Made by a program: the position numbers and the translations under genes. This document shows, piece by piece, positions 564-1,094 of a stretch of DNA of 64,000 nucleotides. A model generated the notes under the pieces. It did no database searches. It had not been told where the DNA came from and worked only from the letters and a program-made list of their open reading frames with translations. Source of the DNA: Phycisphaerales bacterium (GTDB lineage: Bacteria > Planctomycetota > Phycisphaerae > Sedimentisphaerales > Anaerobacaceae); the NCBI GenBank assembly GCA_003141315.1, contig PLLP01000002.1, forward strand, positions 186,001-250,000. Direction: 5' to 3'. Each line of letters opens with the position of its first letter. Position 1 is the stretch's first letter.

Positions 564-761
564 AAAAAAAAAGAACAGGACTGGGTGAGGAGGAGAGAGG
601 AGGGAAGATGATACCCAGTCCTGCCTGCTACGCTAAGTAAATTTTCAAAAAGCAACTTTCGATACCAGACGCAACCCGCCAATCTAAAACAGGGCTGGGT
701 GCGGAGGGAGGAGACAATGAGATTTCCCAGCCCTGTTGACGTCAATCCTCATTTGGTATCT
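564..761 (-). ncRNA. Candidate small RNA with two CU-rich hairpin loops
   Basis: On the minus strand a TATAAT box at 773-768 predicts a start near 761. Bases 760-754 (GATACCA as RNA) can pair with 667-661 (TGGTATC), enclosing a 10-bp hairpin (735-726 with 699-690). A second, 11-bp hairpin (623-613 with 586-576) is followed by nine consecutive T residues (572-564), an intrinsic terminator. Both hairpin loops are about 25 nt, almost all C and U, and contain CCUCC and UCCUCC, the complement of a Shine-Dalgarno sequence. No convincing protein is encoded on either strand. The structure is seen directly; that it is a trans-acting RNA is inference. An accidental pair of paralogous terminators is the main alternative. 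Confidence 0.6.
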
Positions 762-767
762 TTCACT

Positions 768-795
768 ATTATACGGCATACCCATAAAAACCCAA
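768..795 (-). promoter_or_regulatory. Predicted promoter of the small RNA at 564-761
   Basis: A perfect TATAAT lies at 773-768, with TTGGGT at 795-790 and a 16-base spacer. The predicted start falls one base before the 5' strand of the outer stem of the RNA, which supports the assignment. Confidence 0.5.
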
Positions 796-854: not shown

Positions 855-892
855 GGGACTGGGAGCAAAGGGGTGTGAATCCTGCCCAACCC
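855..892 (-). other. Third related hairpin between the small RNA and secA
   Basis: On the minus strand GGGTTGGG (892-885) can pair with CCCAGTCCC (863-855) with a small bulge. The loop contains ACACCCCTTT. It resembles the two hairpins of the small RNA next to it. A T5 run follows 13 bases later, so it could be a weak secA terminator. The rest of the gap from 893 to 1094 is AT-rich and shows nothing further. Confidence 0.35.
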
Positions 893-1094
893 TTTATTAT
901 CGAGATGACATTTTAGCAGGAAATACTGGCACTGTCCAGAAAAAATTCAAATTTTTTTTAAAATTTTTCAAATAGCGTTTGAAACAGCGGAAAACATTTT
1001 TTGGCTCAAAACAGCCAAAACGACTGCTGGCATAATTTTATTTATGAGGAAGGGCAAGTCCGGTTTTTGATTTTTGTCGGGGAGGCGTTGAGAA

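Follow-up and report, generated by a model that had tools for sequence, protein, structure and literature searches.

A hairpin with a near-invariant pyrimidine-rich loop, carried on stems that differ from copy to copy, recurs across one GTDB family of planctomycetes, and its copies appear from their sequences to form a lineage-specific, multi-copy family of small RNAs (sRNAs) that is apparently undescribed. Two copies lie in the window, as we call the whole 64,000-nt stretch of DNA analysed here. The family, its stem (by covariation), the constraint on the loop, the promoter-like sites, the U tails, the copy number and the viral copies are all computed results. The copies are probably stand-alone trans-acting sRNAs in which the loop of the terminator hairpin pairs with Shine–Dalgarno (SD) regions, the window holding a tandem pair. 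The first-pass annotation had put forward an sRNA candidate with CU-rich, anti-SD loops at this locus; the loops do carry several anti-SD cores and have no Rfam match, and the observation holds and errs, if at all, on the side of understatement.

The two hairpins of the window are minus-strand features, flanked by secA, whose stop is at 1095, and by an oppositely placed gene that ends at 380 (Table 1). By its named secA relatives the lineage falls among planctomycetes of the Phycisphaerae/Sedimentisphaerales type. The TATAAT box, the hairpins and the run of nine T residues were found on that strand where the annotation had placed them, and other details of its model needed correction. A 5′ stem had been drawn at the predicted start, and the GATACC/GGTATC pairing does appear in the predicted fold, but it is not conserved: a lower stem of the GAUACC/GGUAUC type was rejected as a family feature because complementarity in relatives equals that of swapped controls. 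The loops, given as 25 nt long and made almost only of C and U, are indeed CU-rich but are 26 nt long, and the pyrimidine content that reaches 92% in loop 2 is only about 73% in loop 1. The 198-nt fold has an energy of −61 kcal/mol against −50 ± 4 for shuffled sequences (z = −2.75; 0/200 shuffles equal it). Perfect inverted repeats of at least 11 bp with loops of 20–34 nt number only eight in 464 kb of the same genome, hairpin 2 being the only one of them with a loop that is at least 80% one base class. The distance from the end of TATAAT to hairpin 1 (30 nt) is somewhat beyond the 5–25 nt usual in relatives and the promoter is not listed under the stricter promoter rule. As the −35 element is weak and the hairpins are on the same strand as secA, the pair could also belong to the secA 3′ UTR. 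A third hairpin-like stretch (GGGUUGGG...CCCAGUCCC; 855–893, minus strand), possibly a decayed copy, lies upstream of both hairpins and is not matched by the family covariance model.

Table 1. Features of the window locus, with related loci named in the text
Feature	Position	Strand	Basis or remark
−35 element TTGGGT, weak	790..795	(-)	consensus match only; 16-nt spacer to −10
−10 element TATAAT	768..773	(-)	9/12 together with −35; predicted start near 761
5′ arm GATACC of possible enclosing stem	755..760	(-)	predicted fold
3′ arm GGTATC of possible enclosing stem	661..666	(-)	predicted fold
Hairpin 1, 12-bp stem, 26-nt loop AAAUCUCAUUGUCUCCUCCCUCCGCA	688..737	(-)	fold, BLAST, covariance model
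Hairpin 1 arms AACAGGGCUGGG; CCCAGCCCUGUU	737-726; 699-688	(-)	
Loop 1, anti-SD cores CUCCUCCCUCC	700..725	(-)	aligns with the family loop UCUCGCUUUYCCUCUCCCUCCGC
Hairpin 2, 13-bp stem, 26-nt loop AUCAUCUUCCCUCCUCUCUCCUCCUC; terminator hairpin	574..625	(-)	fold, covariance model
Hairpin 2 arms GGCAGGACUGGGU; ACCCAGUCCUGUU	625-613; 586-574	(-)	loop 612-587
T9 tract, intrinsic-terminator tail of hairpin 2	564..572	(-)	one C between hairpin and tract
Gene convergent with hairpin copy	L307:5564-7054; L308:3544-5082; L309:3460-4974		
IMG/VR contigs with pyrimidine-loop hairpin	L324, L327, L325, L326, L342, L347, L352, L365, L372, L377		

In a BLAST search with the region, hairpin 1 had matches in 45 further genomes of its GTDB family (46 of 89 family genomes with homologs in total), the match being confined to the hairpin, and on account of these homologs we regard the window hairpins as real. 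The covariance search of related genomes that the annotation had suggested, carried out with a model built from 21 copies (both window hairpins among them), gave a match in 84 of the 89 family genomes and in all 32 of high quality, with 1–15 copies per genome, a few matches being palindromic stems read on the other strand. The window hairpins score E = 7.5e-13 and 5.6e-10, both as training sequences, and the genome to which they belong has three clear copies, these two and one on contig C15. At E ≤ 1e-4 there was no match in 391 other genomes drawn across the phylum. Weaker matches (E ≤ 0.05) occur in 18 genomes of the class outside the family and were rejected as members, since the eight inspected have model-like stems with much shorter loops and not the family loop; three of these eight, from other families of the class (L316, L319 and L320), combine such stems with short C/U-rich loops and could be remote relatives or resemble the family by chance. 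Rfam 15 gave no match at the gathering threshold in the window or at the loci of five relatives, only sub-threshold ones at E ≤ 10, and the earlier statement that no RNA of such a kind is described for the lineage stands.

What is shared by the paralogs is the loop, UCUCGCUUUYCCUCUCCCUCCGC or a CUCC-rich variant of it, and it is found on unrelated stems (CAGGGCUGGG, AAGCCCCUGYG, GGUGGGCUGGGG, GGGCUGGGGUU and others, some of which appear arm-swapped). In 106 aligned matches 96.5% of pair cells are standard, covariation is 0.645 against 0.162 in shuffled and at most 0.157 in slid alignments, and two-sided stem changes number 273 against 65 in shuffles; as this alignment was fitted to the structure and includes some opposite-strand matches, its figures are fairly judged only against the slid and shuffled controls. 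Structural conservation among relatives had been anticipated together with variation concentrated in the loops. The stems are indeed kept by compensation, but the variation sits in them and the loops are conserved, with 88% mean identity between copies over the best-matching 14-nt loop stretch and 61% over the best-matching 9-nt stem stretch. Because the covariance model itself rewards the loop, a search with a loop-only pattern was made; it matched in 59 of the 89 family genomes (reversed control pattern, 0/89) and in one of 392 genomes across the phylum, that one match having no stem. All 30 distinct family matches of this kind examined have stems of at least 8 bp, with a mean of 12.3 bp as against 4.8 in the shuffled-flank control. 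A reading on the opposite strand, with purine loops, was rejected since the T tracts and promoters belong to the pyrimidine strand. As stems have been replaced while the loop persists, the family amounts to a natural experiment isolating the working part of an sRNA.

The surroundings of the copies bear on whether they are genes in their own right. Sigma70-like sites matching at 10/12 or better stand upstream of 24 of 79 distinct copies (expected 1.2 ± 1.0), and ECF-like sites of the form GAAC-N15–17-CGTA precede 12 of 88 (0.8 expected), counts that come from related sequences and not from independent samples. At most sigma70-like sites of 9/12 or better the −10 element ends 5–25 nt before the stem; 11 of the 12 ECF-like sites stand 13–27 nt before it, mostly in one stem subclass, which suggests from sequence that this subclass consists of separately controlled paralogs. 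Examples of ECF-like upstream regions are L203:1343, L206:1227, L170:3326, L174:1244, L021:1280 and L024:127. No conserved protein gene was found to accompany the copies when neighbours were compared. The tetramer or pentamer TGCG(C) is enriched directly after the U tract (23/88 in the first 16 nt, 3–6 in later windows) and is seen downstream of many CAGGG-type copies, e.g. at L175, L015 and L206. That the hairpins are plain intrinsic terminators or 3′-UTR ends (here of secA) with odd loops and no action in trans would account for the U tracts found after most stems and for the position of secA upstream on the same strand in the window. We consider it very unlikely, because a conserved 21–24-nt loop on paralogs with unrelated stems is not needed for termination, promoter-like sites lie just upstream of many copies, and a regex scan of the loci of 80 secA relatives found no such hairpin; moreover, for 40 of the 67 intergenic copies the neighbouring upstream gene lies on the other strand, so that the copies are not as a rule a neighbour's terminator. 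Taking promoter-like sites, U tails and neighbour strands together, the usual predicted transcript is therefore a single hairpin of about 60–90 nt.

CCUCC is present in 98% of the loops of 88 copies as against 34% of shuffled loops, and in the 40 loops that have lost UCGC the figures are 95% and 38%; CUCC cores average 2.5 per loop against 0.95 in shuffled loops (2.75 against 1.07 in loops without UCGC), and the commonest core, CUCUCCCUCC, is found in 58/88, all of these again being related sequences rather than independent samples. In the genome stretches sampled for start-region statistics SD sequences (AAGGAG, AGGAG, GGAGG) are enriched at start regions with a peak near −9 to −14, and none of 462 start regions from two genomes contains the extended complement GGAGGGA. 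Masking of SD sequences is suggested because the loops keep CCUCC and CUCC above composition and these bacteria use SD sequences. In the pairing comparison, which uses start-region and shuffled-loop energies (a coding-region control was dropped because of an artefact for genome G030, where empty edge sequences gave huge energies), loop 1 reaches −10.7 kcal/mol against −9.42 ± 0.18 for shuffled loops, about 1.3 kcal/mol or 7 sd better, and the loop of hairpin 2 is only marginally above shuffled loops. The C15 loop and three G030 loops do no better than shuffled ones, giving one clear, one marginal and four null results in six. The generic binding to many messages proposed in the first-pass annotation is thus not supported as worded, only loop 1 of the window's own genome clearly beating shuffled loops at start regions. 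Its other suggestion, competition with 16S rRNA, is not supported either: the best energy of pairing with 16S rRNA (−24.1 kcal/mol) is no better than that of shuffled loops (−24.9 ± 1.8). No 16S gene was found in the genome's own MAG, and the tail was supplied by one relative (ACCUCCUUUCU).

As the start-region test is mixed, the loop may have as its partner either some of the mRNAs or a protein. The main rival to SD pairing is that the loop is a protein-binding site, the RNAs serving to titrate or recruit an RNA-binding protein (for example a small RRM, S1-like or cold-shock protein), with the SD complementarity being incidental. A near-invariant loop of 21–24 nt exceeds the length of a pairing seed or of SD pairing, single-stranded pyrimidine tracts are typical protein ligands, most of the tested loops show no start-region preference, and in Bacteroides the RRM protein RbpB binds the FopS sRNAs (PMC11697453). 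Moreover RRM_1 was matched in all ten genomes searched (G000, G010, G016, G024, G028, G030, G031, G061, G075 and G084; 1–5 matches per genome), and the Pfam model of Hfq in none of the nine tested for it. We nevertheless think a protein-only role rather unlikely, as diverged loops retain repeated CUCC and CCUCC beyond their pyrimidine content, which anti-SD pairing predicts, and the copies have no conserved protein gene as a regular neighbour.

Viral contigs also carry the hairpin (Table 1), in about nine distinct loop-bearing forms with differing stems, L372 having only the 3′ half of the loop. Clear phage genes occur on several of these contigs (portal, gpA-type terminase, tail fibre J, integrases); integrase genes lie near three of the viral hairpins, and one viral hairpin is followed directly by a tRNA-Met gene. 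That the viral hairpins are attP copies of the cellular loci compared was rejected because the similarity ends at the hairpin; they may represent regulatory mimicry, a passenger gene or an integration-related sequence. In each of six genomes from different genera, a homologous gene converges on the main cellular copy. This gene was recognised in L307 as a terminase large subunit, and in L307 and L308 genes resembling a terminase small subunit and ParB adjoin the copy; such loci are possibly domesticated or remnant prophages. A multi-copy, scattered element found on viral contigs, in three cases close to integrase genes, and in some cells beside terminase-like genes might be a mobile repeat (REP-like, or related to phage attachment or packaging) that spreads without regulatory function. 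This is highly improbable, since mobile repeats retain their stems or ends, whereas in this family the loop alone persists on differing stems, the similarity between viral and cellular copies stops at the hairpin, and promoters are positioned relative to the stem.

We infer transcription, SD pairing, repression and stress control, and under the preferred reading of trans-acting sRNAs a typical copy would consist of a promoter, a short 5′ leader and one hairpin, giving an RNA of about 60–90 nt in which that hairpin doubles as intrinsic terminator and bearer of an exposed CU-rich loop of 21–34 nt; in the window two hairpins would share a single predicted transcript about 198 nt long. The loop, with its mean of 2.5 CUCC cores, would pair with the AG-rich SD regions of some mRNAs only and prevent these from being translated. 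The role of the stem would be only to display and stabilise the loop, so that stems could drift or be replaced. Different sigma factors appear to serve different paralogs, and various signals could therefore feed the same loop, the promoter types suggesting several signals that converge on one RNA output. More tentatively, and as a possibility that we would not put at even odds, the whole family may form an Hfq-independent regulon of mostly uncultured Planctomycetota, in which many sRNA genes with sigma70-like or ECF-like promoters of their own all supply the same near-invariant CU-rich terminator loop to a common partner. Phages would then bear this loop on their own stems, possibly joining or jamming host regulation; the viral copies suggest the loop as a tool or target in phage–host relations. 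An apparently undescribed, lineage-wide sRNA family would be of interest in a phylum for which almost no sRNA literature was found and in host genomes where no Hfq was detected.

Several known systems resemble the family in part. Cuckoo RNAs, alpha-r14 (NfeR1) and CcsR of Alphaproteobacteria combine an ultraconserved anti-SD loop with highly variable stems and are often in tandem (PMC10746234, PMC3927594). The planctomycete family likewise has variable stems around a conserved loop, but in another phylum, and one hairpin is here usually the whole gene together with its terminator. It is not a member of the cuckoo family because the cuckoo motif CCUCCUCCC is almost absent (1/88 loops); DUF1127, associated with cuckoo RNAs and CcsR at the CIN1 locus, was not among ten neighbour proteins scanned with Pfam. 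LhrC1–5 of Listeria monocytogenes are also multi-copy and direct CU-rich single-stranded regions, including the terminator loop, against AG-rich SD regions (PMC5880928); the planctomycete copies share with them CU-rich loops with anti-SD cores beyond composition, but LhrC has three CU-rich regions per RNA and another sequence, belongs to another phylum, and is not linked to the present family by any Rfam match. RepG of Helicobacter pylori base-pairs through its C/U-rich terminator loop (PMC8295292), and the planctomycete loop similarly sits in a terminator hairpin, but RepG is one sRNA, from another phylum, and the target site described for it, in the tlpB leader, is a homopolymeric G repeat rather than an SD sequence. 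The FopS sRNAs of Bacteroides thetaiotaomicron (about 65–70 nt, 14 paralogs) are associated with RbpB and indicate that pairing and RRM binding can coexist (PMC11697453). They too are small and multi-copy, like the candidates found here in genomes with RRM proteins, but their conserved seed is in the single-stranded 5′ part and not in the terminator loop (PMC11697453), and they are reported as deposited in Rfam, where the planctomycete family has no match. By analogy with these systems the best reading is of a new variant of multi-copy CU-loop sRNAs, one that would work like LhrC, RepG and the cuckoo RNAs and yet form a separate family.
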